This document shows positions 22,157-46,746 of a stretch of DNA of 64,000 nt, one piece after another. Source of the DNA: Tomocerus qinae (lineage: Eukaryota; Arthropoda; Collembola; Entomobryomorpha; Tomoceridae). Made by a program: the position numbers and the translations under genes. The DNA lies in assembly GCA_020055645.1 (NCBI GenBank), contig CM034546.1:76756001-76820000 (forward strand). The letters are read 5' to 3'. The number at the start of each line of letters is the position of its first letter. Within the stretch, counting starts at the first letter, position 1. Under the pieces are notes generated by a model that was given only the letters and a program-made list of their open reading frames with translations, had not been told where the DNA came from and did no database searches.

Positions 22157-24376
22157 CTACTTTTGAAAGTTAAGGTATTTTCTTTGAAATATTTGGGACT
22201 TTTTTCTAAAGTAATAAGATGACAGAAGTTCATAGGAAAATATTATAATGCTAACAATCGCCATTGCCATGAACATGTAAAACAAAAACACAATTGAATC
22301 CATTTTAATATAACTTGTGTCGTGCTCTTGGAAATATTTAGTATTATTTTTGACAATAGATTTGAATCTACTCTCCGTAAAAATGGCATCCCACTTGACA
22401 AAAATCAAATAAATCCCTGAATTCATAAGATTAAGTAATTTCTGATACTGAAGTTCGTTGATTATGAAACTCCTTACTCTGAAATGAGTCGTTTGTAAAA
22501 CTAAATCTTTTCTCCCTTGTATATACTTCGAACTGTCAAAGACAAATTTGCCAATTAGTTTTATTTTAACGTTGAAATCAACATACGCCCTTTTGTGACA
22601 ACTTTTAAGAAAATCTAAAGCCATTCGATAGAAGTGGTAATCATAAAGATATTCAAATTCCGAACATCTAAAATGTGGCCAACCTAACATAAAATTACGA
22701 GGCAAAATAGATTTATTTCCTGTTTCAGTTTGATTAACGAAGCAGTTTGTCCAAGACCATTGAGTGGTCTCATTATTCTGAATCTTGTACTGGTGGAATA
22801 TTTGGGTAATTGAATTTTGGGTATCCGACAGGTTTCTTAACCCTGCATTTTGTGATTTCTTGCAATCTCTTAAAAGTACCGGGCCACAGTAATCTTCTGT
22901 GTAGTTAAGCTGATCAGATTTGCAAACTTCGTAGTTGAGAAAATTTTCTTTGACGTAACCCATTTGAGGAAAATTTAAAAATGTGCTATAGTCGGAAGAA
23001 ATTATAGAAAAATTATTAAGATCTTTAAATGACTCAATATTACTACTTATAGGGGATGGCGATGTAATTTCGCTTACAAATATTCCTTTGTATGAGTTAC
23101 TAAACACAATTGCTGCGAAAGACCACAGCCCATAGGTTAAAAATATTTTCCATTTGTTTGTCCCGCCCTTGTACAACAGACCAATACATTGTTCTATTAA
23201 CGGCGAAATAAAAACTACTAGATTTCGAACAAAAACATTACGGAAGTAAAATTTCGTCTCAAATTCATCAATCATTGCATAATAATGAGTTACAAATTCC
23301 TGTACCGAAATATACAACGATAAAACGAAACAGGAGGTGAAGATTAATATCCAGTAATTGAAACTGAAGGGATTGACATAAAATTCACAAGATGCTTCAA
23401 TAGAGACTCCAGCACAAGTCACAAAACTCCATCCTTCCATTCCAGTGGCTACAATAAAATCTTTCCAGAAATAAAAGTTATCTCTACCAAGCAGGTAAAA
23501 TATGCCATTTTGCCAGCGACTATTTTTTTCGGTGAGAATGTTAAAATCTTCCCATATGAATGACTGTATCACATCATCTAATTTCATTTTCTGTTTCTTC
23601 AGAGGAATAAATGGATTGATCCAATTCGCTCTGAATGTCGATTTATTAAATCCAACAGCTTCTTCTCCACAAGTTTGGACGAACTTTACTTCTTTTGCGA
23701 CGGAGTAATTTTCGACCACATTTCTAAAGTTAGAGGTTGAGCTAGAAATATTTCCGATTTCTCTTCCCTTTGAAATTATCAGCAATTCTTTTCCCCAGCA
23801 GACTTTATTCTTTCCATGCGGAAACATATAAGGACATCCTGCACAAGATATTTTTTGGTATTTTATTTCTGCCAAGTTTAAGTGATTTAGTTTCAATTTC
23901 TGCTCATCTATTTTTACACGTAAGTTCCATGATATTCCCGAAAACGTTTTATCTTCTTTTCCAAAAGGATCAGGGGAGATGTTGATCTGATAACCAAAGT
24001 TTTCATTACAGAAAGGATAATTCCTTCCTTTGTTAGATTGGGTTGATGTACTAGAATTATAATTATTGTAGCAAAAAAATGAAAAATCTTCAAATGGACT
24101 CTCAAATACCAGCACTACTCTTAAAAATGGAAAAATCCATTTTCTCATTACTGAAACTAAGGTTAATTGATTTGGTTGAATTATTAGTAGCGGAACATTT
24201 GTTCTCGCATTCAATTCAGGAGAATATTTCGTGTAAATAATTGTCACCGCACAGTCTTGAAAGGAATTTAAAATTTTATGAAGACCTACAATTTTTATAT
24301 TTTGAATGTTTTCAGTACATTCGGACGAAAATTTTAAAAATAAGAAAATAAATTCAAGTACAAATACAATTTTCAT
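22157..24376 (-). CDS. Ionotropic-receptor-like ligand-gated channel, intronless
   Basis: A 739-residue protein in one exon, resembling the divergent arthropod ionotropic receptors derived from glutamate receptors. A signal peptide (MKIVFVLEFIFLFLKFSSEC) precedes a long cysteine-containing extracellular part rich in N-glycosylation sites. A first membrane segment lies near 342-360 (YWILIFTSCFVLSLYISV). A pore/M2-like hydrophobic segment follows (FLTYGLWSFAAIVFSNSYKG). Then comes the S2 half of the ligand-binding region and a last membrane helix near the C-terminus (IVFLFYMFMAMAIVSIIIFS), with a short basic tail. In iGluR/IR proteins SYxGxxxSxLT-type motifs follow M3; here SNSYKGIFVSEITSP fits that place. 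It is probably a chemosensory receptor subunit. The ligand cannot be predicted. Confidence 0.7.
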   Translation of the reverse strand: MKIVFVLEFIFLFLKFSSECTENIQNIKIVGLHKILNSFQDCAVTIIYTKYSPELNARTNVPLLIIQPNQLTLVSVMRKWIFPFLRVVLVFESPFEDFSFFCYNNYNSSTSTQSNKGRNYPFCNENFGYQINISPDPFGKEDKTFSGISWNLRVKIDEQKLKLNHLNLAEIKYQKISCAGCPYMFPHGKNKVCWGKELLIISKGREIGNISSSTSNFRNVVENYSVAKEVKFVQTCGEEAVGFNKSTFRANWINPFIPLKKQKMKLDDVIQSFIWEDFNILTEKNSRWQNGIFYLLGRDNFYFWKDFIVATGMEGWSFVTCAGVSIEASCEFYVNPFSFNYWILIFTSCFVLSLYISVQEFVTHYYAMIDEFETKFYFRNVFVRNLVVFISPLIEQCIGLLYKGGTNKWKIFLTYGLWSFAAIVFSNSYKGIFVSEITSPSPISSNIESFKDLNNFSIISSDYSTFLNFPQMGYVKENFLNYEVCKSDQLNYTEDYCGPVLLRDCKKSQNAGLRNLSDTQNSITQIFHQYKIQNNETTQWSWTNCFVNQTETGNKSILPRNFMLGWPHFRCSEFEYLYDYHFYRMALDFLKSCHKRAYVDFNVKIKLIGKFVFDSSKYIQGRKDLVLQTTHFRVRSFIINELQYQKLLNLMNSGIYLIFVKWDAIFTESRFKSIVKNNTKYFQEHDTSYIKMDSIVFLFYMFMAMAIVSIIIFSYELLSSYYFRKKSQIFQRKYLNFQK

Positions 24377-31213: not shown

Positions 31214-31755
31214 GTAACCATTTTCAAACATGTAAACCATTTCCAAACATATGTAAACCATTTCCAAACATATGTAAACCATTTCCAAACATATGTAAAC
31301 CATTTCCAAACATATGTAAACCATTTCCAAACATATGTAAACCATTTCCAAACATATGTAAACCATTTCCAAATATATGTAAACCATTTCGAAACATATG
31401 TAAACCATTTCCAAATATATGTAAACCATTTCCAAACATATGTAAACCATTTCCAAATATATGTAAACTATTTCTAAACTTATGTAAACCATTTCCAAAT
31501 ATATGTAAACCATTTCCAAACATATGTAAACCATTTCCAAACATATGTAAACTATTTCCAAACATATGTAAACCATTTCCAAACATATGTAAACTATTTC
31601 CAAACATATGTAAACCATTTCCAAACATATGTAAACTATTTCCAAACATATGTAAACTATTTCCAAACATATGTAAACTATTTCCAAACATATGTAAACC
31701 ATTTCCAAACATATGTAAACCATTTCCAAATATATGTAAACCATTTCCAAACATA
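31214..31755. repeat. 21-bp satellite array, part 1
   Basis: About 25 head-to-tail copies of a 21-bp unit, CATATGTAAACCATTTCCAA plus A, with scattered C/T and A/T variants. The unit length is a multiple of three and no frame contains a stop, so long false reading frames appear on both strands (for example repeated NICKPFP or MEMVYICLE). The first units carry the variant TTTTCAAACATGT. Confidence 0.95.
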
Positions 31756-32358
31756 TCGTCCCTTAAGGATCGAAAAAGCCTCTATCCACTTTCAGATTGG
31801 TGGACGAATAAGCCTATATCCATTTTTTGTTTGGTGGACGAATAAGCCTATATCCAATTTTCGTTTGGTGCAGGAAATAGCTTCTATCCTCTTGCAGCTT
31901 TGCTTGTAAAGCTATAGGGGCGTATTGATACATGGTTAATATTGGCGGCGGAAATATTGAACTTTTATTCTTCCATCAACCAGTTCGGTTTTATCCAATA
32001 TCAAAATACGAATTTGTGTCATTAAAAGTTTTGTTTTTGTCTTATTGTGTAATTAGCTAAAATTTTATAATGCTTATGTACATTCTAGCTGATATATTTC
32101 AAGTATCAACATAAAAATAATAAATATTTCATTTCGTAAACTTGCTTATTCTTACTGTGCCCCCACAACTTTACTTAAGGCTGTAAGATGACAGAGGCTA
32201 TTTCCTGCACCAAACGAAAATTGGATATAGGCTTATTCGTCCACCAAACAAAAAATGGATTTAGGCTTATTCGTCCACCAAACAAAAAATGGATATAGGC
32301 TTATTCGTCCACCAATCTGAAAGTGGATAGAGGCTTTTTCGATCCTTAAGGGACGATA
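31754..32358. mobile_element. 600-bp inverted-repeat element in the satellite, copy 1
   Basis: Element 31756-32356 with ends TCGTCCCTTAAGGATCGAAA and the exact inverse, flanked by TA; the target would be the CATATG in the satellite unit. The inverted arms run about 130-165 bp and contain direct sub-repeats of GGTGGACGAATAAGCCTATA (about 33-bp period). The centre (about 31890-32190) is unique and non-coding. A second copy lies at 45636-46234. It looks like a non-autonomous DNA transposon. Confidence 0.75.
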
Positions 32359-32900
32359 TGTAAACCATTTCCAAACATATGTAAACCATTTCCAAACATA
32401 TGTAAACCATTTCCAAACATATGTAAACCATTTCCAAATATATGTAAACCATTTCCAAACATATGTAAACCATTTCCAAATATATGTAAACCATTTCTAA
32501 ACTTATGTAAACCATTTTCAAACATGTAAACCATTTCCAAACATATGTAAACCATTTCTAAACTTATGTAAACCATTTTCAAACATGTAAACCATTTCCA
32601 AACATATGTAAACCATTTCCAAACATATGTAAACCACTTCCAAACATATGTAAACTATTTCCAAACATATGTAAACCATTTCCAAACATATGTAAACTAT
32701 TTCCAAACATATGTAAACCATTTCCAAACATATGTAAACTATTTCCAAACATATGTAAACCATTTCCAAACATATGTAAACTATTTCCAAACATATGTAA
32801 ACTATTTCCAAACATATGTAAACCATTTCCAAACATATGTAAACCATTTCCAAATATATGTAAACCGTTTCCAAACATATGTAAACCATTTCCAAACATA
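32357..32900. repeat. 21-bp satellite array, part 2
   Basis: The same unit in the same orientation as part 1, with two runs of the TTTCTAAACTTATGT / TTTTCAAACATGT variants near 32495-32590. It is interrupted at 32900 by the Gypsy element, which used a CATA inside one unit as its target. Confidence 0.95.
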
Positions 32901-33352
32901 TATGCCGTATTTAATTACAAGAAAAGGTTTAGCATATAAAACTCTCTGATGAGTAAAATGAATGGGGTCGTTTCACGTTTGCTTTTTGATACAAAAATAT
33001 AATTTAGAATTTATTAAAACAGATCTAAATAGCCAATTGAACGCGCGAATAGGATAGTTAAGGATTAGAAGAGTCAGGCAACAGACTCAGGCCATACGTC
33101 ACATACGGCCAATCTGACAAGTCAGCAAGTCAGTAGGAAAGGTGAGAACTCAAGCTACAGTCAGCAGCAGCCAGAGTCTAGAAGCATAAATCATCAAGAT
33201 TGGAATTGAGTCGAGGTTTATAAAGACTCGGTCAAGTCCAATCTACAGTAGACATATATCTAAATGTAGACAATGATGATTTAGATAGGCTGGCAAGTCT
33301 ACATGCTAGCCTATCAGTAAAATAATTTATTTACATAGTAACATACGTTACA
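32901..33352 (-). repeat. Gypsy 3' LTR
   Basis: About 452 bp. On the element's strand it begins TGTAACGTATG and ends ACGGCATA. It differs from the other LTR (45115-45568) by small changes such as ACTCTCTGATGAG against ATACTCGCTGATGAG. Confidence 0.9.
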
Positions 33353-33374
33353 GACCCCTCCACCAAACCAAACT

Positions 33375-33836
33375 TCACTGTTTGTTCCTCGAAATCTTTT
33401 TCTTCTTTTTCTTTTTGGATTTCGGTTTTAACCCTTTAAGACGAGGATTAATACACGTGGCGGCTGGATGGTTTTCCTCTCCACATTTGTAGCAGATGAT
33501 CGGTGGTTTAATCGAAACTGTTCTGTCCTCGGCCAAAGTAACAGTTAGATTCGGCAAAGTAGGAGATGACCGTGTCGACTCAGTCAAATTCCAGTATGGG
33601 TCATCTGGGGTAAGGAGTTCACCCAGGCGATCAGCAAAAGAAAATAGTTGGGCTCGAGTGGTGAAAGAATAGGAAGGCAAAACACGACGTAATGAAGGAT
33701 GCAAACCAAGCAGAATTCGATTAACTACTCGAATTTCAGGAACGTCTTCCTTAGAGTAAATTGCTAGTAAAGCATCTTCAACTCGCCAGGCAAAGCTTTG
33801 CACATGTTCTCCAGGAAATTGTTCAAAATTAGACAT
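33375..33836 (-). CDS. Gypsy: second, gag-like zinc-knuckle ORF downstream of pol
   Basis: 153 residues. The N-terminal half (HVQSFAWRVEDALLAIYSKE, VVNRILLGLHPSLRRVL) aligns with the C-terminal half of the element's own gag at 43825-44400. It then has a CCHC knuckle (CYKCGEENHPAATC) and a Lys-rich tail (KSKKKKKKK). It lies between the end of pol and the 3' LTR, where an envelope gene would sit in an errantivirus. It looks like a duplicated or captured partial gag that keeps the nucleocapsid region. Whether it is expressed is unknown. Confidence 0.75.
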   Translation of the reverse strand: MSNFEQFPGEHVQSFAWRVEDALLAIYSKEDVPEIRVVNRILLGLHPSLRRVLPSYSFTTRAQLFSFADRLGELLTPDDPYWNLTESTRSSPTLPNLTVTLAEDRTVSIKPPIICYKCGEENHPAATCINPRLKGLKPKSKKKKKKKISRNKQ

Positions 33837-34191
33837 TATTATCTATATACCACAAAAAGAGAAGCATATACAAAAAATCATAATCAAGACTACGATCATA
33901 TTGACTTATTGAGAAGTAGTATCATAATACTAAATTAATAAGCAAACAACAAAACATGTACAATTCATACAATATTGGTTGAAAAAACTAAGTACTACAA
34001 AAATCAAATGTACATACTCAGAAAAATAAGAAAATCATATTATTAAGATATAACACTATTAGAGCGTAAATTATATCTATGCTTAGGTGCTACCCTAACA
34101 TTAAGTGAAGTAGTAGCATTGGAATTGGCCGGGGAATTTTCAGCGCAATCAGAAGAAGTATAAATAGAATTAGGTCTATCAAAATAGGGCT
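33837..34191. other. Gypsy internal spacer between pol and the gag-like ORF
   Basis: About 350 bp of AT-rich sequence inside the element. It has no open frame of note and could hold a splice or promoter signal for the downstream ORF. Confidence 0.4.
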
Positions 34192-37122
34192 TTAAATTTT
34201 GTACATTAAATACACCAATAATTTCCTGGGTGAGGGTGACATAGTAACAGGGTGAGAAGAAACTTCATAATTAACATTGTTAACAATTCTAGAAATTACA
34301 AAAGGACCTGTACGTCGGAAAGCAAACTTTTTCGTAAACTTTTTGGATTTGTTTGAAAGATAGTGAGTTCGGATCAAAACTAAGTCACCTACAGAGTAAG
34401 AGATAGGATCATGACGTAAATTATAGTATTTAGCCTGAGATTTCTGAGAAAGAGACATGTGTGATTTAGCTTTTGCATACACCTGAGCTAACTTTTCTAT
34501 TAGTGCAGTTTTATATTCTGCTTGAGAGGCAATCACATCAGGGGAATCATTTTCAATCCAACGGTCAAATGGAAATGTTATTTCCCTACCAAACATTAAC
34601 ATTGAAGGACTAAAGCCAGTTGTTTCACTGACTGCTGTGCGCAAAGCGAATGCAGCAGCAGAAAGGAATTCGTCCCATTTATTATGTTTGGACGAAATGT
34701 AAGATGTAAGGATTGCTCGGAGGTTCCGATTCACCCGCTCAGCAAGATTAGCTTGAGGGTGGTATGCCGTAGTGTATTTGTGTTTAATTTTCCATGCTTC
34801 ACATAATCTAGAAATAATACAAGAGCGAAAATTAGTAGCATTATCTGTGAGAATGCAAGAGGGGCTACCATAACGACTAAAAACTTCATTTTCAAGCACA
34901 GATTTTATACGATGAGCTTTGCCATCTTTGAGAGGAAACAGTTCGACCCATTTCGAAAAGTGGTCAGTGACAACTAACAATTGTGTATTGCGATGAGGAG
35001 TAGAAGGTAGGGGACCCATAATATCTATACACAACATATCCCAGACACCTTTAGTATTGGTACTTTGAAGAGAACCAGAAGGTTTAGTGTTACTTGCCTT
35101 AGAGGACTGACAGATAGAACAAGAACGTACATATTTCAGAATGTCATCATGCATGGAGAACCAAAAAACTCTCCGAACAAGGCAAAGAAAGGTCTTTCGA
35201 TACCCCAAATGGCCAGCCAAGGGATTATCATGGAAATATGTGAGAATTTCAGACCGGAGAGAAACTGGAATAAATGGAATTTTAATATTAAAGCGATTAA
35301 TTTTATATAGAATATCGTTAACTACACACAATTCTTTAGGAAGGTCTGTCCGAAGGGCTTGACATTCTAAATCATCAACCTGATGTTGTTTAATGATATC
35401 CAGTGTGATGTCACCAGTAAGCATAGAAAGGAGTGTGAGACTAGAAACACGTTGAGGGAAGTCCATGACTTCTTTACTTTCCTCGTCCTCCACTTCACCT
35501 ACTGGATATCTAGAAAGAGCATCAGCAACAACATTAAGTCTACCAGGACAATGCGTAATATATGGTTGAAAATTTTGAATTTGAAGAGACCAGCGCATAA
35601 ATTTCGAATTGACCTCACGCATAGAATGTAACCAGGTCAGCGCTTTGTTATCCGTTTGAAGAGAAAACGGTTGTCCATCTAAATATGCAGCAAATTTCTT
35701 AAGACTCCACACAATGCTTAAACATTCACGTTCTGTTGCATGATATGCTCGTTCAGTTTTGGAAAGAGAACGACTGGCAAAGGCGACAGGGCGCTCTAAG
35801 TTGTCAATTTTCTGAGCTAAAACGGCACCAAGTCCAACGCCAGAGGCATCGGTACGAAGAATAAATTCCTTAGAAAAATCAGGAAAAGAAAGAGTAACTT
35901 CATTAGTAATTAGATCTTTTAACGTAATAAACGTGTCATTTTCTAATTTAGTCCATTGAAAAGAAATATTTTTGCGCAATAAACAATTAAGAGGTTCAGC
36001 TACGTGGGAAAAGTTTGGAATGTAGTGACGATACCATCCACATAAACCTAGAAATTTCTTGATATCTTTAGGATTTTTCGGAACAGGGTAATCCGTAATA
36101 GGTTTGACTTTGTCCGGATCAGTAGAAACACCATCAGGAGTAATGAGGAAACCCAGATATTTAATTTTTGTTTTGCCAAAGGTGCATTTGTTAATATTTA
36201 CTGTTAATTTAGCTTCCCGCAATTTAGAAAGGACAAAACGAACATGATTAAGGTGATTTTCCCAAGAACTGGAAGAAAATATAATATCGTCCAAATAGGC
36301 ATCAGCAAAATTGCCAATAGCATCTTTTAATAAAGAATTCACAAATCTTTGAAAACAAGATGGCGCTGTTTTTAAACCAAAAGGCATTCTTAAAAATTCG
36401 AATTTGCCTTCGTCACAGATAAAACTAGTATAGGGAATAGAATCAATGTGCATTTGTATTTGCCAATAACCTTTCTTTAGATCAATCACTGTAATAAATT
36501 TGGCACCACCCAGACGGTGAATTAAGTCAATTATTCTATTAAATGCAAAAGGATCAGATCGAGTTCTAACATTAACTTTGCGGTAATCGATGCAAAAACG
36601 ATAATCATCTGCTTCTTTTTGTAAATTAACTGGAGAAGCCCCTTCAGAAGTTGAATGGCGAATTATTTTCATGTCTAACATTTGATTAACTTTTTTCTTA
36701 ATAATGGCACGTTTAAAAGGTGAAACACGATATGGTTTCTGAGCAATTGGGGGTCCCTCAACTTCCAATTTACATTGAACGTAATCGGTACACCCAACGT
36801 TATCAGAAAACACATCTGGAAATTCAGTTAGAAGAGATTTTAATTCGTCTTCCTGTGAACCAGTCAGACTTTGTAAATTACATAAAATATTTGAATTGGC
36901 ACAATGAAATTTCAACTTTTCCGATTCTGAAAAATAATAACATCCACGAGGGATATCTAACAAAATGTTATAATTATAAATAAAATCTTGACCCAAAATA
37001 CAATTGTAAGGAGCATCATCAATAATATAGAACCTATTAATCAAGGGCTTACCAGACAAGTCAAAAGCAAGATCACAGTAGCCAGAGGTTAGAATTTGAG
37101 AATTATTTCCTAATGTCACAGA
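34192..37122 (-). CDS. Gypsy pol, 3' part (end of protease, RT, RNase H, integrase)
   Basis: About 975 open codons starting abruptly at the Copia target duplication. Order: the second half of the aspartic protease (PYNCILGQDFIYNYNILLD), reverse transcriptase with active site YLDDII near residue 273, RNase H (LRTDASGVGLGAVLAQ), an HHCC integrase zinc finger (HDNPLAGHLGYRKT, CSICQ), the DDE integrase core (CIDIMGPLP, ILTDNATNF, YHPQANLAERVNR) and a C-terminal chromatin-directed tail with FAFRRTGPFVI (GPF/Y motif). No internal stop. The missing start lies beyond the Copia insertion at 43636 and onward. Confidence 0.95.
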   Translation of the reverse strand, partial: SVTLGNNSQILTSGYCDLAFDLSGKPLINRFYIIDDAPYNCILGQDFIYNYNILLDIPRGCYYFSESEKLKFHCANSNILCNLQSLTGSQEDELKSLLTEFPDVFSDNVGCTDYVQCKLEVEGPPIAQKPYRVSPFKRAIIKKKVNQMLDMKIIRHSTSEGASPVNLQKEADDYRFCIDYRKVNVRTRSDPFAFNRIIDLIHRLGGAKFITVIDLKKGYWQIQMHIDSIPYTSFICDEGKFEFLRMPFGLKTAPSCFQRFVNSLLKDAIGNFADAYLDDIIFSSSSWENHLNHVRFVLSKLREAKLTVNINKCTFGKTKIKYLGFLITPDGVSTDPDKVKPITDYPVPKNPKDIKKFLGLCGWYRHYIPNFSHVAEPLNCLLRKNISFQWTKLENDTFITLKDLITNEVTLSFPDFSKEFILRTDASGVGLGAVLAQKIDNLERPVAFASRSLSKTERAYHATERECLSIVWSLKKFAAYLDGQPFSLQTDNKALTWLHSMREVNSKFMRWSLQIQNFQPYITHCPGRLNVVADALSRYPVGEVEDEESKEVMDFPQRVSSLTLLSMLTGDITLDIIKQHQVDDLECQALRTDLPKELCVVNDILYKINRFNIKIPFIPVSLRSEILTYFHDNPLAGHLGYRKTFLCLVRRVFWFSMHDDILKYVRSCSICQSSKASNTKPSGSLQSTNTKGVWDMLCIDIMGPLPSTPHRNTQLLVVTDHFSKWVELFPLKDGKAHRIKSVLENEVFSRYGSPSCILTDNATNFRSCIISRLCEAWKIKHKYTTAYHPQANLAERVNRNLRAILTSYISSKHNKWDEFLSAAAFALRTAVSETTGFSPSMLMFGREITFPFDRWIENDSPDVIASQAEYKTALIEKLAQVYAKAKSHMSLSQKSQAKYYNLRHDPISYSVGDLVLIRTHYLSNKSKKFTKKFAFRRTGPFVISRIVNNVNYEVSSHPVTMSPSPRKLLVYLMYKI

Positions 37123-37127
37123 AGAAA

Positions 37128-37568
37128 TGTTAGAATACTAACCTAAATAAATGCATGAGAAAGTAAAGTAGCAAATGTTCACACAATTGGTTTGTACATT
37201 TAAGCTGAACATTAGATTTTAAGGGTCCAAGTACTTAACGTTTGGCCCTTCTTAATGTAGTAACTATTAGTTTTTATGATTTTGTAGCTCAATTAAGTCT
37301 AAATGAAGCATGAAAGCATATGGGTACAACTGTTACATCGTCCCATGTCCCTTGCTTTATAGAGATACCTATTGTAACCATTAAGGGTCTCTCACATCTG
37401 TCTATGTAAGCATAGTATTTAAATACCATGGACAATAATGTAAAAGTACTGAGTATTATTCAACTGTTTGAGCTGGAAACTTCATTCTCTCTCTGTTCAA
37501 TAAAAGTTACTTTACAGTAACAACTAAATACAAAACTTGTCTCACTAACTGAATCCGTTTTCATAACA
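37128..37568 (+). repeat. Copia 5' LTR
   Basis: 441 bp, begins TGTTAGAATAC and ends TTTTCATAACA (TG...CA). TCAATAAAAGT near 37498 is a probable polyadenylation signal, and the TATTTAAATACCATGG region near 37418 may be the TATA-box area. The repeat partner is 43190-43630. Confidence 0.95.
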
Positions 37569-37729
37569 TGGTGTCAGAAGTGGGATTCAGGATTCGATCT
37601 GTGAGTTAAAAGAATTCAAGTTTTTGAACTTAGTGAATTTGTCCAATCAGTAAATACTTAGTCAGTTTTTTGTGTGGAAAAGAGTGAAGTATTTGTGAGT
37701 GAGCAAGTTGTTGAACTCTGACAAGTAAA

Positions 37730-40700
37730 ATGGCCACCGTCAGTATTTCGCAACGTATTGATACAAATCACGTTGTAAAACTTGCAAATGATAATTGGGA
37801 TCTCTGGAACTTACAAATCACCCTAGTTCTTAAAGCTGCAAAAGTGTGGGACGTTGTCAGTGGCACATCCACTCGTGCAGCCGCAGCTGATAAAGATAAA
37901 TGGGACGATTCTGATATAAAGGCCCAAGCCATCATTGTACCCACTCTTACATTAGTGAACGCTACTCATATCCACAGTTGTATTACATCAAAACAAGTGT
38001 ATGACCGTCTAAAGTCAATTCATAGTGACACAAGTCAGTTGAACAAACAGTTTGTGTTAGCTTCATTCTTCAACTATAAGTTCAAAGAGGGAACAACTCT
38101 TGTCACTACATACACTGAGATAGAGAGGTTGTCAATCTCTCTAAACCAAATGGGTGTGGTTATTGACGATGATACCACAATTATGAAGATAGTGTCTTCA
38201 CTTCCTGATGAAAAGCATAATGCTTTCAAAAAGGCATGGGACAGTGTTCCTGCAGCATCCCAAACAATGCCCGCACTGTTAGCCAGGTTGAGAAAAGAGG
38301 ATCTTGAGCTGAAACAAGTAAGCAACACTGAGGAGGAGCAGAGCCAAGTAAAGGCGTTTCAGGCAAAAGGAGGAAAAGGGAAACTCGACAAAAAGGAATT
38401 CAAGAAAAGAAAGATTGAAGAATTAAAGAAAAAGACCAAATGCAGTCGGTGCAAACAGACTGGTCATTGGTATAAGGATAAGGAATGCCCAGCCCGCAAT
38501 ACACACCCCAACGAAAGTGAGGAGGATAAAAGAAAGACAATTGCAGCCTTCATGAGCAATCCAAATCATGGTAATGATGTATGGATTTCAGATTCCGGTG
38601 CAAGCCAACATATATGCGGTAAAAAATCCTTCTTTATTTCATACAAAGAGTTTGAGACCCGAGTGTCAGTATACCTTACTGACGGAAACGCAGTGGAAGC
38701 CCAAGGAATAGGAACTGTTTCAGTATTGGCATTCATGAACAATAAATGGATAGAATGCACAATGAATGAGGTACTGCATATTGAGGGAGCAGCCAATCTC
38801 TTTTCAGAAGTTATTATGGATAAAAAGGGATATACCATAATAAGAGCAGCGGGAGTGGCAAAATACATTGATAGAAATGGATTAGAAGGGCCAGTAGCTG
38901 TAATGAGAGATAATATGTATATTATGAAGTTTAAACCCATTGTACCGAACAAAGCAAATGCAATATGCTTGAGCTCTAATGCAAGACTCTGGCATGAGCG
39001 AATGGGTCACATCAATATAAGGTTCATTAATGACACGGCCAAGAAAAATGCAGTGAAAGGATTTTATGAGAATTTTGGAGAACAGTCCATTGAATGTAGC
39101 ACTTGTCAATTGGGAAAACAAGCTAGAAAGCCTTACCACACAGTGGAAACTAAGAGAAATACTAAGCCAGGGGAAATGGTTCACGCAGACCTATCTGGGA
39201 AAATGCCTGTTACTTCTATTGGAGGAGCTGATTATTTCTTCCTAATGAAAGATGATTCGACAGGATTTCGTATGGTATTCTTTATCACGAAAAAGACACA
39301 AGTCCCTGCCTGTATTGAAGAGTATGTTTACTTTATGGAAAACCAGACAGGATCAAGACTTAAAGTTTTTAGAAGTGACAATGGAACTGAAATGGTTAAT
39401 AAGACAGTTCAGACATTCTTTCAGAAAATGGGTATTGTACATGAGACCACGGCCCCATACAGCCCTGAATCGAATGGGAAGATAGAACGGGAAATGAGAA
39501 CTTTGAAAGAATCGGCTCGCTGTATGCTACTGCAGTCAAAACTGCCAGAATATTTGTGGGCTGAAGCAATGGCCACAGCAGTTTACATAAAGAACCGAAT
39601 TCTGGATACACAGAGTCCAGAAATAACAGCATTTGAGGCTATTTTAAAAAGAAAACCAGAAATGGGACATTTGCGTATTTTTGGATGCCTAGCCTTTGCA
39701 CACATACCACAAAACAAACGAAAAGTGTGGAATGATACTGCTGAACAGAGTTATATGGTTGGATATGATGGAGAAAGCTACAGAATATACAATGCTCTTA
39801 ATAAAACAGTAACAATTGCTCGTAATGTAACTTTCAAAGAAGTAGTACAAGGTGAAATTTCTCTTGAGGAAGCGAACAGCTTTGAGCAGAGTAGAAAAGA
39901 GTTAAGTGAACCTGTGGGAGACGAAGAGGAGATAGAATCCTACATAAAGCCAGGGCCTACTTTAAGGGATAGGTCCAAACTAAAGCCAATAGACAGACTT
40001 CAAGTTGGATTTCATACAAAAATAATAGAGCCAGCAACGTTTGATGAAGCAATTATGTCACCCAATGCCAAGGAATGGATGGAATCCATGGTGGATGAAT
40101 TACATAGCCATAAATTAAATAAAACTTGGACTTTGGTCCCTTACCCAACAGACAAGCAAGTACTTGACAACCGTTGGGTATACAGAGTAAAAACAAACCC
40201 AGATGGCTCAATTTCAAGATTTAAGTCCCGTTTGGTTATAAAAGGTTACAAGCAAGTACATGGAATTGATTATTATGCCACATTCTCCTCTGTTGGCCGA
40301 TACGAAAGCATAAGGATTCTGATATGCATAGCAGCTACATACGGCTACTTTATTGTACAACTGGACATCAAAACAGCCTTTCTGCATGGGAAAGTTAAAG
40401 AAGTTATTTATATGAAGCAGCCTGACGGATTTATAGAAAATCCTAACTTAGTTTGCTTGTTGGACAAGAGTCTTTATGGGCTTAAGCAAGCACCGAGATG
40501 CTGGAACGAGAGATTAACTGAATTTTTAAAAGAAAATAATTTTAATGTATTAACAAGCGACCCTTGTGTCTTTATTGGATTTGTTAACACATACATTGTA
40601 TACCTACTGGTATATGTGGACGATATTTTAATGGTGTCCCCAAATAACGAAGCACTAAAAATGGTTACACAGAGAATTGAGTCTACATTTGAAATATCAA

Positions 40701-43162
40701 AAGGAGAACTAAGCTCTTTCGTGGGATTCGAAATTAAACGAAGCGAAGACGGAATTTATATGGGACAGGCATCGTATGTACAAACCTTGCTTGACAGATT
40801 TGAGATGACTGATTGCAGTGTACAGTCTGTACCAATGCAACCGAACCAGGATTGGCTTCCTGCTGAGCAGTGTGAGAAAGGACTGCCTTATCCACAGCTC
40901 ATTGGAGCTTTATTGTTTCTCACAAGATTATCCCGTCCTGACATTGCCTATGCAGTGTCAAAGCTGTCCCAATTTATGAGTGCATACGATGAGAATCATC
41001 TCGAAGCAGCGAAAAAGGTACTTATGTACCTAAAAGGAACAATAAACTTGGGTTTGTATTACAAGAAGGGAGGAGAGTTGAGTTTGAATGGCTACTCGGA
41101 TTCAGACTTTGCAGGCAACAAACTTGACAGGAAATCAACCACTGGTTATGCCTTTTTCCTTGGAGATAGTTTGATCACTTGGAACAGTAATAAGCAACCT
41201 ATAGTGACTTGTTCCAGTACAGAGGCAGAGTATGTTGCTCTTTCCTCAGCAGCCAGGGAATGTGTTTGGCTGCAAACCTATCTTTTGGAGCTGCAGATAC
41301 CACAAGACGGCCCAGCCAAGCTGTTCGTTGACAATACAAGCGCTATACGGCTAGCTAAAAACCCAGAGTTTCATAAACGTACTAAGCATATAGATGTACG
41401 TTACCACTATGTCAGAGAACTAATAACTAATAATGTAATAGAGGTACACCATGTACCCAAAGAAGAACAAAAGGCAGATGTACTCACAAAACCACTGCTA
41501 AAAGGCAAACATCAGCATGATACACAGAAACTTGGACTCAGTGCAGGAAACGGGAATATCAATCCCCATTCAAAGATCGGTGTTGGAACTGGAACCATAA
41601 GTGGACTAATGAGCAAGTTATTCATTACTATGCTACTATTGCTGGGACTTCTATCTCCAATTACTGCAAACCCAACCGTAAACCAACCAGTACTCTGGAG
41701 GCCAAGTAACATACCTATAACTGTAGGTTACAATGAGTACTATTTAATGATTCATTTGAAAAGCCCTTGCGACATTTTGACGAATGAGACAATTCATGAG
41801 GATCTTCTCATCGATACGAAAAACAAATGCAACGAACTGTATGATGAATATTTTATGAAGGAACTGGAAATTATGTGCCCTAAAGGCAGCTTCACAGAAG
41901 TCCATTCACGCTCTAAGAGATTTGTTTTTGGAATATTAATGGGAATACTAATCATGTCCATAGTTGTTCCAGTTGGACTTGGAATCTCAGCACAGGTGAC
42001 AGCCAGTGTCGCAGCAGGAAAAATAGCAACTGTTGAAACGAAGATGAGTGAGATGGAAAGTGAACTAGAGAGTCTTTCGAAAAATATGGAATTGGCGAAA
42101 GAAGCAATTAAAGTTCTACAACATAATGTAAAACTTTTGCGGATAGAAACTAAGGCACATGAAGATGACTATACACAAATGAAAGCAAAGCTGAGCGCAT
42201 CTATTTACGCAATTTCATACATAACATCAAGAATGCTGACTGCCAAACAAATACTTAAAGAAGCGAAGCGAAATTGGGAAGAACGAAAGTTATATGCTCC
42301 ATTGTTTGACTATCTTGGCTTCTCCTTGCCATGTAAAGAGTCTTGTCCAATTCGGCTTGGCAGAGCAAAGAAATGTCGAATATCTTATGACAAATCTAAA
42401 CTGTACTTTGATTTTGTTACTCCACTTATAAATGATACTCTGCACCTTCTGGAGGCTGACCCTTTTGACCTGATACACCAAACTGAGAACCAGACTTGCG
42501 TTATCTCGTTTTCTGGACCCCGAAACGTGATCATGAGTGAATTACACAGTTGTGTGTATGCAGTTAATGTTAAATACTCTGATTTGATTTTGTCTCCTTC
42601 ACAGGATTGTGACCATAGCATGACCTACCCAAACGTCTCGAGGTATTATTCGTTGGGAAAATGTCATCCGAGACATACAAAGGACGCGATGGATTTCGTT
42701 CAAGTAAAAAACTTCAACTTTCAGAATTATATTTATTGCCACGGCAATAATATTACAATTGGAAAAAGAGAACAGGCCTGCCCACTTGATGTCTTTACAC
42801 TGCCAATTACAGCAGCTTTCACAATCAATGACCATTTCTACAAGGCCGGCGAATTTCAAATTAGCCATATCCAGGAGGTCAACCCTTTATTCACGATGAA
42901 AGCTAATTGGCTATTACAGCCAAAGATACACATGGACGAAATTAAGGAAGATATAAAAATGTTGGATTCAACTAAGAAAAATCATGATTCATATAATACT
43001 ACATTTATGTTTTTAAATTTGTTGATTGGTGGAATCATTTTTTTGTCTCTTATTATAATAATTCTGGTTGTTGTTATGATTATCATTTGGAAACGGAAGA
43101 AAACTGTCGAGCCTGCTGTAAAATTTACAGCCCCTAAAACCATCGAAATAGATGATGCCTAA
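37730..43162 (+). CDS. Copia polyprotein: gag-protease-integrase-RT-RNase H fused to an envelope-like domain
   Basis: 1810 codons without a stop. Gag part about 1-230. CCHC-like knuckle near 237 (CSRCKQTGHWYKDKEC). Protease WISDSGASQHI near 285. Integrase HHCC (HERMGHI near 421, CSTCQLGK) and DDE core (HADLSG, FRSDNGTEM, PYSPESNGKIER). RT with KSRLVIKGYKQ and YVDDIL near 961. RNase H YSDSDFAGN near 1124 and ADVLTKPL near 1250. The frame then runs on without a break into a membrane protein: a hydrophobic signal-like segment from 1294 (MSKLFITMLLLLGLL), a furin-type RSKR at 1394-1397 followed at once by a hydrophobic fusion-peptide-like stretch, an amphipathic heptad region about 1430-1480, paired cysteines, N-glycosylation sites, a transmembrane helix about 1758-1788 and a short basic tail. 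That is the layout of a class I fusion envelope like those of errantiviruses and the baculovirus F protein. How the envelope part would be freed from pol is not evident. Confidence 0.95.
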   Translation: MATVSISQRIDTNHVVKLANDNWDLWNLQITLVLKAAKVWDVVSGTSTRAAAADKDKWDDSDIKAQAIIVPTLTLVNATHIHSCITSKQVYDRLKSIHSDTSQLNKQFVLASFFNYKFKEGTTLVTTYTEIERLSISLNQMGVVIDDDTTIMKIVSSLPDEKHNAFKKAWDSVPAASQTMPALLARLRKEDLELKQVSNTEEEQSQVKAFQAKGGKGKLDKKEFKKRKIEELKKKTKCSRCKQTGHWYKDKECPARNTHPNESEEDKRKTIAAFMSNPNHGNDVWISDSGASQHICGKKSFFISYKEFETRVSVYLTDGNAVEAQGIGTVSVLAFMNNKWIECTMNEVLHIEGAANLFSEVIMDKKGYTIIRAAGVAKYIDRNGLEGPVAVMRDNMYIMKFKPIVPNKANAICLSSNARLWHERMGHINIRFINDTAKKNAVKGFYENFGEQSIECSTCQLGKQARKPYHTVETKRNTKPGEMVHADLSGKMPVTSIGGADYFFLMKDDSTGFRMVFFITKKTQVPACIEEYVYFMENQTGSRLKVFRSDNGTEMVNKTVQTFFQKMGIVHETTAPYSPESNGKIEREMRTLKESARCMLLQSKLPEYLWAEAMATAVYIKNRILDTQSPEITAFEAILKRKPEMGHLRIFGCLAFAHIPQNKRKVWNDTAEQSYMVGYDGESYRIYNALNKTVTIARNVTFKEVVQGEISLEEANSFEQSRKELSEPVGDEEEIESYIKPGPTLRDRSKLKPIDRLQVGFHTKIIEPATFDEAIMSPNAKEWMESMVDELHSHKLNKTWTLVPYPTDKQVLDNRWVYRVKTNPDGSISRFKSRLVIKGYKQVHGIDYYATFSSVGRYESIRILICIAATYGYFIVQLDIKTAFLHGKVKEVIYMKQPDGFIENPNLVCLLDKSLYGLKQAPRCWNERLTEFLKENNFNVLTSDPCVFIGFVNTYIVYLLVYVDDILMVSPNNEALKMVTQRIESTFEISKGELSSFVGFEIKRSEDGIYMGQASYVQTLLDRFEMTDCSVQSVPMQPNQDWLPAEQCEKGLPYPQLIGALLFLTRLSRPDIAYAVSKLSQFMSAYDENHLEAAKKVLMYLKGTINLGLYYKKGGELSLNGYSDSDFAGNKLDRKSTTGYAFFLGDSLITWNSNKQPIVTCSSTEAEYVALSSAARECVWLQTYLLELQIPQDGPAKLFVDNTSAIRLAKNPEFHKRTKHIDVRYHYVRELITNNVIEVHHVPKEEQKADVLTKPLLKGKHQHDTQKLGLSAGNGNINPHSKIGVGTGTISGLMSKLFITMLLLLGLLSPITANPTVNQPVLWRPSNIPITVGYNEYYLMIHLKSPCDILTNETIHEDLLIDTKNKCNELYDEYFMKELEIMCPKGSFTEVHSRSKRFVFGILMGILIMSIVVPVGLGISAQVTASVAAGKIATVETKMSEMESELESLSKNMELAKEAIKVLQHNVKLLRIETKAHEDDYTQMKAKLSASIYAISYITSRMLTAKQILKEAKRNWEERKLYAPLFDYLGFSLPCKESCPIRLGRAKKCRISYDKSKLYFDFVTPLINDTLHLLEADPFDLIHQTENQTCVISFSGPRNVIMSELHSCVYAVNVKYSDLILSPSQDCDHSMTYPNVSRYYSLGKCHPRHTKDAMDFVQVKNFNFQNYIYCHGNNITIGKREQACPLDVFTLPITAAFTINDHFYKAGEFQISHIQEVNPLFTMKANWLLQPKIHMDEIKEDIKMLDSTKKNHDSYNTTFMFLNLLIGGIIFLSLIIIILVVVMIIIWKRKKTVEPAVKFTAPKTIEIDDA

Positions 43163-43189
43163 AGAAAATGTATTTAGATTAAGGGATAG

Positions 43190-43630
43190 TGTTAGAATAC
43201 TAACCTAAATAAATGCATGAGAAAGTAAAGTAGCAAATGTTCACACAATTGGTTTGTACATTTAAGCTGAACATTAGATTTTAAGGGTCCAAGTACTTAA
43301 CGTTTGGCCCTTCTTAATGTAGTAACTATTAGTTTTTATGATTTTGTAGCTCAATTAAGTCTAAATGAAGCATGAAAGCATATGGGTACAACTGTTACAT
43401 CGTCCCATGTCCCTTGCTTTATAGAGATACCTATTGTAACCATTAAGGGTCTCTCACATCTGTCTATGTAAGCATAGTATTTAAATACCATGGACAATAA
43501 TGTAAAAGTACTGAGTATTATTCAACTGTTTGAGCTGGAAACTTCATTCTCTCTCTGTTCAATAAAAGTTACTTTACAGTAACAACTAAATACAAAACTT
43601 GTCTCACTAACTGAATCCGTTTTCATAACA
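43190..43630 (+). repeat. Copia 3' LTR
   Basis: 441 bp, matching the 5' LTR base for base as far as I can follow by eye. It is preceded by a purine-rich tract (GATTAAGGGATAG) that would be the polypurine tract. Confidence 0.95.
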
Positions 43631-43635
43631 AGAAA

Positions 43636-43816
43636 TCTTTTTGGTAACGGGAACATCCAAAACAGTAGATAAAGAAGTTGTAAGGAAAGAACACTTGGCA
43701 CCACAGTCCAATAACGCAGTGAAATCGTGATGGCCAAACTTTAATAATATTTGAGAAGTGATAGTGGGAGATAAGTGAAAAAAATTCTGTACGGCAACAG
43801 GATACGCACTAGTCAC
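43636..43816 (-). CDS. Gypsy protease, 5' fragment cut off by the Copia insertion
   Basis: Sixty codons continuing from the gag region. They contain FTALLDCGAKCSFL, an aspartic-protease active site with Cys in place of the usual Ser/Thr (D-C-G-A). The fragment ends at the Copia target duplication. The rest of the domain is at 37122 and downstream on the minus strand. Confidence 0.85.
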
Positions 43817-43824
43817 CCCGTAAG

Positions 43825-44948
43825 TCAGTTTTTTGAATCAGGAGATGTTGAAGCAGCCAAAACAGCAGCCTCCGCTTTACGTTTTTCCCGCGCCTTTAAT
43901 TTGGGACACTCTGAGATGTCATGATCAGATTTTTTACAATATTTGCAAGGGCCCAAAGAAGAATCAGAATTTGAAGAAGCTCGATTGCTAACAGTAGGCG
44001 TTTCTGTGCTAGCAGTCATCAGCTCGGATTTTTCCGTAGTTGATGAATCAGAATTCACTGTGGTAGACACAGACGAAGAAGGTGAAGGCCGCGACTGGCG
44101 CTGATGAAAATTAGAATATTTTCCACCAGTGGGTAAAGCAGGCTTGGGATCAGTAGAACGAATACGGAAAAGTGGCTTTTTCTCAAAACGCCTTATTTTA
44201 TTTAAATCAGAGATAACCTCTCTGCTGTGGTGAATGAGCTCTGGCACAGTATCACACTGTAGTGTTCTAAGGATAACTGATATCTCAGGTAGACACGAAT
44301 TGATAATTCGAGTCACTACTTCCTTTCCATCCACATTGTCTGAAAGTTTCCGTAAAGCGAATTAACATGCTATGCATAGGACTCAAATGCATCGTCAAGT
44401 TTTTGACGGGTATGAAACAGAAGATTTCTTATCTCATCTTTACTTTGACCTGCCTTTTCGTATTCAATAAAATTATCCTTAAAGTCTGACCACGTCTTTA
44501 TAGAATCTTTTGATTCTCTCCACCAACATGCAATATCCGAATCTCTAACAAACATGCGACTCAACAGAAGTAACCATGTAGATTTCTTGGCACCTTTGTA
44601 AGCAAAATAATCTTCAACTTCCCTAATGAAATGTTCGGGTGTCATAACTTTGGCATCATAAGTAGGTATAGGAAAAGAAACTGAAGAATCTACTTCAAAT
44701 GGACGATCGCTAACATTTTGCAACTGTGTCGATTTAAGTATAGTATCTACGTCGTCCTCACCGCCGCTAACATCCTGTTCGACATCTGGTTTCGATTCTA
44801 AGTTGTTTATTGCAACTGCCATCGTCGATAGATTTCTATTAATCTTATCAAGCGTAACTACAATATCAGCTTGCTTATTCTGAAGAGCAGTAACTGCCAC
44901 AGCTAAATCCTTAAGTGTTAATTCTTTCCTTTCTTCTGCACCAAGCAT
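43825..44948 (-). pseudogene. Gypsy gag, broken by a stop and a frameshift
   Basis: The first part, 44948-44370 (192 codons, starts MLGAEERKEL), has a coiled-coil-like N-terminus and a retrotransposon gag domain (TWLLLLSRMFVRDSDIACWW, WSDFKDNFIEYE) and stops after AFESYA. The second part, 44334-43825, resumes in another frame (EVVTRIINSCLPEISVILRT) and ends with a nucleocapsid knuckle (CKYCKKSDHDISEC). The related ORF at 33375-33836 has Trp at the place of the stop (SFAWRVE), so a TGG-to-TAG change is likely, followed by a one-base shift before the second part. This copy therefore probably cannot make full-length Gag. Confidence 0.8.
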
Positions 44949-45114
44949 AATGAAAGCTATGAATATTGAATTAAAAAAAGGAAAATTGATATTAAGTCCA
45001 ATGCTAAGACCTCAAAATTTGTTATATCAAGAATAGGTAGACAATATAAAACTAGCTATATAATTTTGAATGAAAGTTTCAAATAGCAAAGTGAATTAAA
45101 AGTTGGGCGCCATA
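44949..45114. other. Gypsy leader with primer-binding site
   Basis: The untranslated leader between the 5' LTR and gag on the element's strand. The minus strand reads TATGGCGCCCAACTTTTAAT next to the LTR. The TGGCGCCCAAC part is the usual complement of a lysine-type tRNA 3' end. Confidence 0.7.
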
Positions 45115-45568
45115 TATGCCGTATTTAATTACAAGAAAAGGTTTAGCATATAAAATACTCGCTGATGAGTAAAATGAATGGGGTCGTTTCACGTTTGCTT
45201 TTTGATACAAAAATATAATTTAGAATTTATTAAAACAGATCTAAATAGCCAATTGAACGCGCGAATAGGATAGTTAAGGATTAGAAGAGTCAGGCAACAG
45301 ACTCAGGCCATACGTCACATACGGCCAATCTGACAAGTCAGCAAGTCAGTAGGAAAGGTGAGAACTCAAGCTACAGTCAGCAGCAGCCAGAGTCTAGAAG
45401 CATAAATCATCAAGATTGGAATTGAGTCGAGGTTTATAAAGACTCGGTCAAGTCCAATCTACAGTAGACATATATTTAAATGTAGACAATGATGATTTAG
45501 ATAGGCTGGCAAGTCTACATGCTAGCCTATCAGTAAAATAATTTATTTACATAGTAACATACGTTACA
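45115..45568 (-). repeat. Gypsy 5' LTR
   Basis: About 454 bp, nearly identical to 32901-33352. Its outer end abuts the satellite at CATATGTAAACC. Confidence 0.9.
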
Positions 45569-45635
45569 CATATGTAAACCATTTCCAAACATATGTAAAC
45601 CATTTCCTAACATATGTAAACCATTTCCAAAGATA
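45569..45635. repeat. 21-bp satellite array, part 3
   Basis: About three units, one with TTTCCTAAC. This is the continuation of part 2 beyond the Gypsy insertion, up to the second 600-bp inverted-repeat element. Confidence 0.9.
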
Positions 45636-46236
45636 TCGTCTCTTAAGGATCGAAAAAGCCTCTATCCACTTTTAGATTGGTGGACGAATAAGCCTATATC
45701 CATTTTTTTTGGTGGACGAATAAGCCTAAATCCATTTTTTGTTTGGTGGACGAATAAGCCTATATCCAATTTTCGTTTGGTGCAGGAAATAGCTTCTATC
45801 CTCTTGCAGCTTTGCTTGTAAAGCTATAGGGGCGTATTGATACATGGTTAATATTGGCGGCGGAAATATTGAACTTTTATTCTTCCATCAACCAGTTCGG
45901 TTTTATCCATTATCATAATACGAATTTGTGTCATTAAAAGTTTTGTTTTTGCCTTATTGTGTAATTAGCTAAAATTTTATAATGCTTATGTACATTCTAG
46001 CTGATATATTTCAAGTATCAACATAAAAATAATAAATATTTCATTTCGTAAACTTGCTTATTCTTACTGTGCCCCCACAACTTTACTTAAGGCTGTAAGA
46101 TGACAGAGGCTATTTCCTGCACCAAACGAAAATTGGAAATAGGCTTATTCGTCCACCAAACAAAAAATGGATATAGGCTTATTCGTCCCTCAATCTGAAA
46201 GTGGATAGAGGCTTTTTCGATCCTTAAGGGACGATA
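45634..46236. mobile_element. 600-bp inverted-repeat element in the satellite, copy 2
   Basis: Element 45636-46234, very similar to 31756-32356 and in the same orientation. Small differences include TCGTCTCTTAAGG at the left end and one fewer base in a T-run. It sits at the same CATATG position of the satellite unit and is TA-flanked. Confidence 0.75.
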
Positions 46237-46746
46237 TGTAAACCATTTTCAAACATATGTAAACCATTTCCAAACATATGTAAACCATTTCCAAACATAT
46301 GTAAACCATTTCCAAACATATGTAAACCATTTCCAAATATATGTAAACCCACATATATAAACCATTTCCAAATATATGTAAACCATTTCCAAACATATGT
46401 AAACCATTTTCAAACATGTAAACCATTTCCAAACATATGTAAACCATTTCCAAACATATGTAAACCATTTACAAACATATGTAAACTATTTCCAAACATA
46501 TGTAAACCATTTCCAAACATATGTAAACTATTTCCAAACATATGTAAACTATTTCCAAACATATGTAAACCATTTCCAAACATATGTAAACCATTTCCAA
46601 ACATATGTAAACCATTTTCAAACACATGTAAACCATTTCCAAGCATATGTAGACCATTTCCAAACATATGTAAACCATTTCCAAGCATATGTAGACCATT
46701 TCCAAACATGTAAACCATTTCCAAACATGTAAACCATTTCAAAAGA
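46235..46746. repeat. 21-bp satellite array, part 4
   Basis: The same 21-bp unit with more divergence towards the right end (CCAAGCATATGTAGACC variants, shortened AACATG units). The array fades out at CCATTTCAAAAGATATGG. Confidence 0.95.

Follow-up and report, generated by a model that had tools for sequence, protein, structure and literature searches.

Gain of an envelope (env) gene is an accepted step in the passage from long terminal repeat (LTR) transposon to retrovirus, and has been described for Gypsy and BEL elements. Searches of an open-licence literature library found no animal Copia element with an envelope. According to the available portion of one source, expression of an env-like gene is rare among pseudo-, meta- and belpaoviruses (PMC11599104), and the available portion of another names Sirevirus as the only genus of the Pseudoviridae that possibly carries an envelope-like gene (PMC3599292). 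Here we describe a Copia element from the collembolan Tomocerus qinae whose Gag-Pol frame runs on into an envelope-like (Env) part. The element occupies positions 37128-43630 of a stretch of 64,000 nucleotides, the window (assembly GCA_020055645.1, contig CM034546.1, 76,756,001 to 76,820,000, forward strand). With a probability of about 0.72, we interpret it as a recent copy from a long-established Copia lineage of animals, which acquired a fusion glycoprotein of the F type (class I-like) and kept it as the last part of a single Gag-Pol-Env frame.

An envelope-like domain in the Copia frame

A first-pass annotation, made from the sequence alone, had proposed that the Copia frame passes from RNase H into an Env-like part without a stop. 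This was borne out by the reading frame, in which 1810 codons are open (37730-43162) and no stop separates RNase H from the terminal Env part of ~510 residues. Analysis of the frame with Pfam revealed the domain order Copia gag, Pol_BBD, gag_pre-integrs, rve, SH3 and RVT_2; the frame also has the motifs of RNase H, which ends in TKPL at residue 1253. The element thus has the traits of Copia (Pseudoviridae), with integrase ahead of reverse transcriptase (RT), an RT of the RVT_2 type, a Copia gag in one frame and LTRs with a target duplication. The element lacks the Gypsy-type pol of errantiviruses, having RVT_2 and the Copia order. The element is also as young as had been claimed, both LTRs being identical over 441/441 bases and the target duplication AGAAA intact.

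All of the parts that had been claimed for the Env domain were found, namely a signal-like segment, an RSKR site, a hydrophobic segment, a coiled coil, sequons, a transmembrane segment and a basic tail. Only its start had to be moved, since the claimed position 41580 falls in the linker and the domain proper begins at ~41609. The order is that of class I (F-type) proteins: a signal segment, then a cleavage site followed by a hydrophobic segment, a heptad helix and a C-terminal transmembrane segment. The Env part of the element contains 6 N-glycosylation sequons, 12 cysteines and a predicted long coiled coil. Alignment of 18 Env sequences gave nine invariant columns, five of which are cysteines, and an R-x-K/R-R motif was present in 15 of the 22 loci of the own genome that were examined.

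Recurrence of the pol-env junction

The genome of T. qinae (334 Mb, 115 contigs) was searched with the Env and RT-RNase H parts, and other copies with the same 3' domain were looked for, as the first-pass annotation had suggested. These searches revealed at least 88 Env and at least 92 RT-RNase H matches; they scored the best candidates (84 of 133 and 87 of 132, respectively), so that distant env-less Copia elements may be unlisted. Among 50 RT matches that reached query residue 460, the end of RNase H, 49 were followed on their own strand, within 600 bases, by an Env match, and the sole match without one was a fragment at C1:3966415. We also read 28 env stretches, made up of the 8 best Env matches (including the window's own) and 20 picked by hand from the rest. 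Env and RT/RNase H shared one stop-free frame in 25 of them; in L025 the RT lay in a different frame, and L010 and L011 had no Copia RT. Several broken copies keep no more than the RNase H end in frame with Env. An Env tree with six near-copies omitted resolved about ten Copia families in this genome, several of which hold open frames of 1813-1995 residues; the description of such an animal Copia as very unusual was therefore an understatement for this species.

Seven further copies carry a 3' LTR 99.5-100% like that of the window, and their likeness to the window ends at the LTR end. Because of these near-identical copies and the point at which their likeness stops, the sequences indicate that the family of the window moved recently. 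L005 and L006, which belong to these seven, lie 6 kb apart on C5 (15746295-15753886); their env copies are on one strand, 6059 bases from each other, an arrangement that would fit two elements with an LTR in common.

Outside the own genome, a search of 5.8 billion proteins identified 17 Env relatives at 26-49% identity (E-values down to 3e-163), all of them from jgi or lgn sources. In the same chain as Env, RVT_2 was found in P0007 and P0012 and a partial RNase H in P0013. A profile search with 15 Env sequences returned 19 proteins, 3 of which were new. With 17 Env relatives and the same pol-env junction recurring in other elements, the junction is beyond chance. Some of the relatives, all metagenome proteins, were irregular: P0008, P0010 and P0014 all stop just past a shared IQV/VQV motif, P0141 stops within the coiled coil, and the frame of P0017 is interrupted by ~26 extra residues, perhaps a short intron that keeps the frame. 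These five are possibly broken copies, genes with introns or host-adopted env genes.

The Env carriers also grouped by their RT. The RT-RNase H search passed 6514 proteins, of which 120 were listed; its length limits of ~557-1775 residues excluded proteins as long as that of the window (1810). The Env profile matched 9 of the 120 listed relatives in frame, and these carriers include the nearest by identity among those listed (58, 54, 53 and 52%). In a 105-row RT-RNase H tree, 12 env rows and P0064 formed one group (SH-aLRT 99). In a more careful RT tree of 55 rows, comprising 10 env rows and 45 env-less rows picked by hand from 93, the 10 env rows and P0064 formed one clade (100/98.8); some of the env-less rows not chosen are host gene models with long, unrelated tails. 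P0064 is without Env, its chain stopping 33 residues past the RT-RNase H match in a signal-like stretch, and the other 44 env-less rows stop 1-35 residues past the match. A single clade of env rows without P0064 was not rejected by the AU test (p 0.397). Pairwise identities of RT and Env agreed across 12 elements (r 0.86; 0 of 10000 permutations as high), which suggests that Env mostly travelled with pol. In the Env tree the Env-only proteins did not cluster together: 8 changes are needed for the 13 Copia-linked rows, a number that was no higher in 72 of 500 shuffles; many of the Env-only proteins are possibly cut by contig ends or gene callers, and their grouping carries no inference. The RT of the window groups with arthropod-named rows (Cordylochernes and Temnothorax in the neighbouring group) and apart from plant rows. 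We call the lineage animal because of these neighbours and the host genes in the window. The gene order, the open frame, the recurring junction, the shared RT clade and the several near-identical copies are matters of observation.

Production and nature of the Env part

If Env is made by the fused route, the long RNA would be translated into a Gag-Pol-Env polyprotein and an internal signal segment would direct its last 510 residues into the endoplasmic reticulum. Signal peptidase and a furin-like enzyme would then release an F2-F1 protein with a C-terminal anchor. Consistent with this route, the gap between RNase H and the hydrophobic core measures 34-57 residues and stays in frame in 13 of 13 fused proteins, the window's included, and all 13 have net positive charge ahead of the core; the gap is 35-61 residues in those Copia rows of the own genome in which a TKP motif was found. 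P0044 and P0050 have no methionine between RNase H and the hydrophobic core. Because of the frame, the linker charge, these methionine-free linkers and the R-x-K/R-R motifs, a fused frame with an internal signal segment is favoured, and we put the chance that Env is made in this way at about one half.

The strongest alternative is that a spliced subgenomic RNA is the sole source of Env, in the manner of errantiviruses, and that the open pol-env frame is an inherited trait without a function. An ATG at the start of the Env part, an acceptor-like AG at 41575, 34 bases ahead of it, and two GTGAGT sites in the leader speak for splicing and against the fused route. Errantivirus env RNAs are spliced, and in Drosophila upstream exons supply the start, according to the available text of PMC12992720. 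Nevertheless, the splice-like sites are consensus matches without a chance control, and the frame stays open across linkers of varied length in the fused proteins and in most own-genome stretches. We consider splicing as the sole route possible, at clearly less than even odds; a spliced leader-env RNA may also operate alongside the polyprotein.

A second alternative concerns what the domain does. It could be a cell-surface or intracellular membrane protein with an F-like fold, acting in particle release or in the host cell, that is not fusogenic. For each of two AlphaFold models, all 50 PDB matches listed were paramyxo- or pneumovirus F proteins, and in a comparison with viral models the nearest folds were lispivirus, baculovirus F and other glycoproteins. 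VIA-align also listed F proteins, among candidates limited to folds ranked by Foldseek. The viral likeness first proposed therefore held for F-type proteins in general, with fusion-protein-like models, and not for baculovirus F in particular, as the nearest PDB folds were those of paramyxo- and pneumoviruses and the Pfam lists for the window protein and domain contained no baculovirus F model. A phmmer search of Env against PDB matched only coiled coils, comparison with PHROGs and NCBIfam gave weak matches only, and three scans of viral_contigs revealed no Env relative. Several points weigh against a fusion glycoprotein: global superposition on F proteins was poor (TM-scores of 0.2-0.3), so that likeness to the F fold is modest, the best match in one comparison was not an F protein, cleavage motifs are missing in some rows, and fusion activity is a prediction. 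However, the cleavage motif, the hydrophobic segment and the long helix follow one another in class I order in most aligned rows, and a non-fusogenic membrane protein seems unlikely to us. Neither pol copies lacking the domain nor a model without a fusion-protein fold, outcomes named beforehand as refuting, appeared. A one-off capture of an unrelated host gene by the window's element, a curiosity of a single copy, was likewise named in advance as a refuting outcome and might draw on the relatives that end early or carry a possible intron, but it is very improbable given the same junction in about ten own-genome families and in metagenome contigs.

Returning to an F-type fusion glycoprotein gained by a Copia lineage, particles that bear Env would fuse with other cells and could, for example, reach the germ line as errantiviruses do. 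The Copia-Env elements are probably infectious between cells.

Env in other LTR elements, the locus and known systems

The L010 and L011 stretches contain frames of 1023 and 1090 codons in which a retroviral-type aspartic protease is followed by Env. The protease was matched by RVP in L011 (E-value 1.5e-4, above the Pfam cut-off) and only below the cut-offs in L010. Likeness between the two frames is 66% over Env but 33% ahead of it. Each lies between long direct repeats; one pair, at 65009393 and 65022014, is 100% alike over 641 bases, and the other, at 67041331 and 67055774, is 99.8% alike over 497 bases. Taken to the terminal CA, the flanks fit 4-base duplications. In the L010/L011 pieces searched, no frame of at least 200 residues with YxDD was found, a shorter or distant RT being possible, and tblastn with the window's Gypsy pol and Copia RT gave no match. 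A MATH-BTB-zinc-finger gene lies near each of them on the opposite strand, and also near env matches at C1:66.42, 67.99 and 14.72 Mb and on C10. Such protease-Env LTR elements are multi-copy and 13-15 kb long (L010, L011 and L029-L050; C1 65.01, 66.42, 67.04, 67.99 and 14.72 Mb; C10).

In the Env tree, L010 and L011 group with the window's family and L009 (100/100), and the Copia-linked L012 and L013 fall outside. From this sequence evidence, Env was likely passed from Copia to these LTR elements, in which no RT was detected; other rows near L010 and L011 lack a known context, which limits the direction of transfer. Tentatively, and a little short of even odds, we propose a further animal retroelement line turned retrovirus: an old and diverse Copia with an F-type Env in its Gag-Pol-Env polyprotein, whose Gag-Pol would thus be tied to the membrane, and whose Env module also passed to LTR elements that yielded no RT match, where it again continues the frame of a protease and has a MATH-BTB gene on the antisense strand as its neighbour; these elements would be recently mobile too, taking their enzymes from others.

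The features of the element are collected in Table 1.

Table 1. Features of the Copia-Env element (window positions)
Feature	Position	Strand	Basis or remark
Target site duplication AGAAA	37123..37127 (5' copy); 43631-43635 (3' copy)		sequence comparison
5' LTR, 441 bp, TGTTAG...ATAACA	37128..37568	+	identical to 3' LTR
Primer-binding site	37569..37592	+	complement has CCA at its end
Two splice-donor-like GTGAGT sites (37601, 37695) in leader	37601..37700	+	consensus match
Single Gag-Pol-Env frame, 1810 codons	37730..43162	+	open reading frame
Copia gag domain, Retrotran_gag_2	37823..38302	+	Pfam
Protease region, Pol_BBD, with DSGA	38582..38833	+	Pfam and motif
Integrase core, rve	39161..39466	+	Pfam
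Reverse transcriptase, RVT_2, with YVDD	40118..40840	+	Pfam and motif
RNase H, conserved TKPL motif at its end	40841..41497	+	motif
Pol-env linker, stop-free	41498..41608	+	splice-acceptor-like AG ends at 41575
Signal-like hydrophobic segment of Env	41609..41671	+	first in-frame env ATG at 41609; end set by eye
RSKR furin-type cleavage site	41909..41920	+	motif
Hydrophobic, fusion-peptide-like segment	41921..41983	+	sequence
Long helix, heptad-repeat-like	42056..42280	+	predicted model, residues 149-223
C-terminal transmembrane segment, then basic tail to 43159	43031..43087	+	sequence
3' LTR	43190..43630	+	comparison with 5' LTR

The complement of the primer-binding site resembles the 3' end of what we take to be tRNA-Leu. 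A zinc-knuckle-like motif in Gag (38441-38488) has the spacing C-x2-C-x4-H-x6-C, with x6 and not x4 at its end, and its Pfam zf-CCHC match reached an E-value of only 0.3. The Copia element is inserted in a Gypsy element of the opposite strand (32897-45568), which has direct repeats at 32897-33352 and 45111-45568 (458 bp, 99.1%), a pol at 34192-37119 and an Arc-like gag at 44370-44948. On either side of the Gypsy element, at 45547-46732 and 31500-32900, a 21-bp repeat with ACATATGTAAACCATTTCCAA in its consensus forms arrays. A single-frame gene of 739 codons at 22157-24376, with a weak match to ligand-gated ion channels, is perhaps a chemosensory receptor.

If our interpretation is true, Copia would join Gypsy and BEL as the third large superfamily, through an old animal lineage whose Env is class I-like and whose one-frame layout makes Env production and sorting inside a polyprotein testable; the near-identical copies in the own genome offer a living case. 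The elements that have this Env but in which no RT was detected would show directly that different kinds of LTR element exchange modules.

The F and related glycoproteins of paramyxo-, pneumo-, lispi- and baculoviruses resemble the Env part in predicted fold and in part order, but they are virus genes and not parts of a retroelement polyprotein, and structural alignments with viral F-type glycoproteins gave only ~8-14% identity. Sireviruses share the Copia superfamily and an envelope-like gene, as far as the available portion of the source extends (PMC3599292). In contrast to the window's element they are plant-specific, and its RT stands apart from the plant rows used, none of which is labelled sirevirus. 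The TelKA elements of bdelloid rotifers are LTR elements whose Env has been compared to the class I F proteins of paramyxoviruses; they belong to retrovirus-like lineages and not to Copia, they carry Env as ORF3, and an in-frame fusion is unmentioned in the available part of the source (PMC5408684). Errantiviruses, in the available text, are LTR elements in which pol is followed by a cleaved F-type glycoprotein with signal peptide, furin site, fusion peptide, cysteines, transmembrane segment and tail (PMC12992720). They are of the Gypsy lineage, have an Env that resembles baculovirus F and make it as a third frame from a spliced RNA, whereas the Env of the window's Copia element continues the pol frame.
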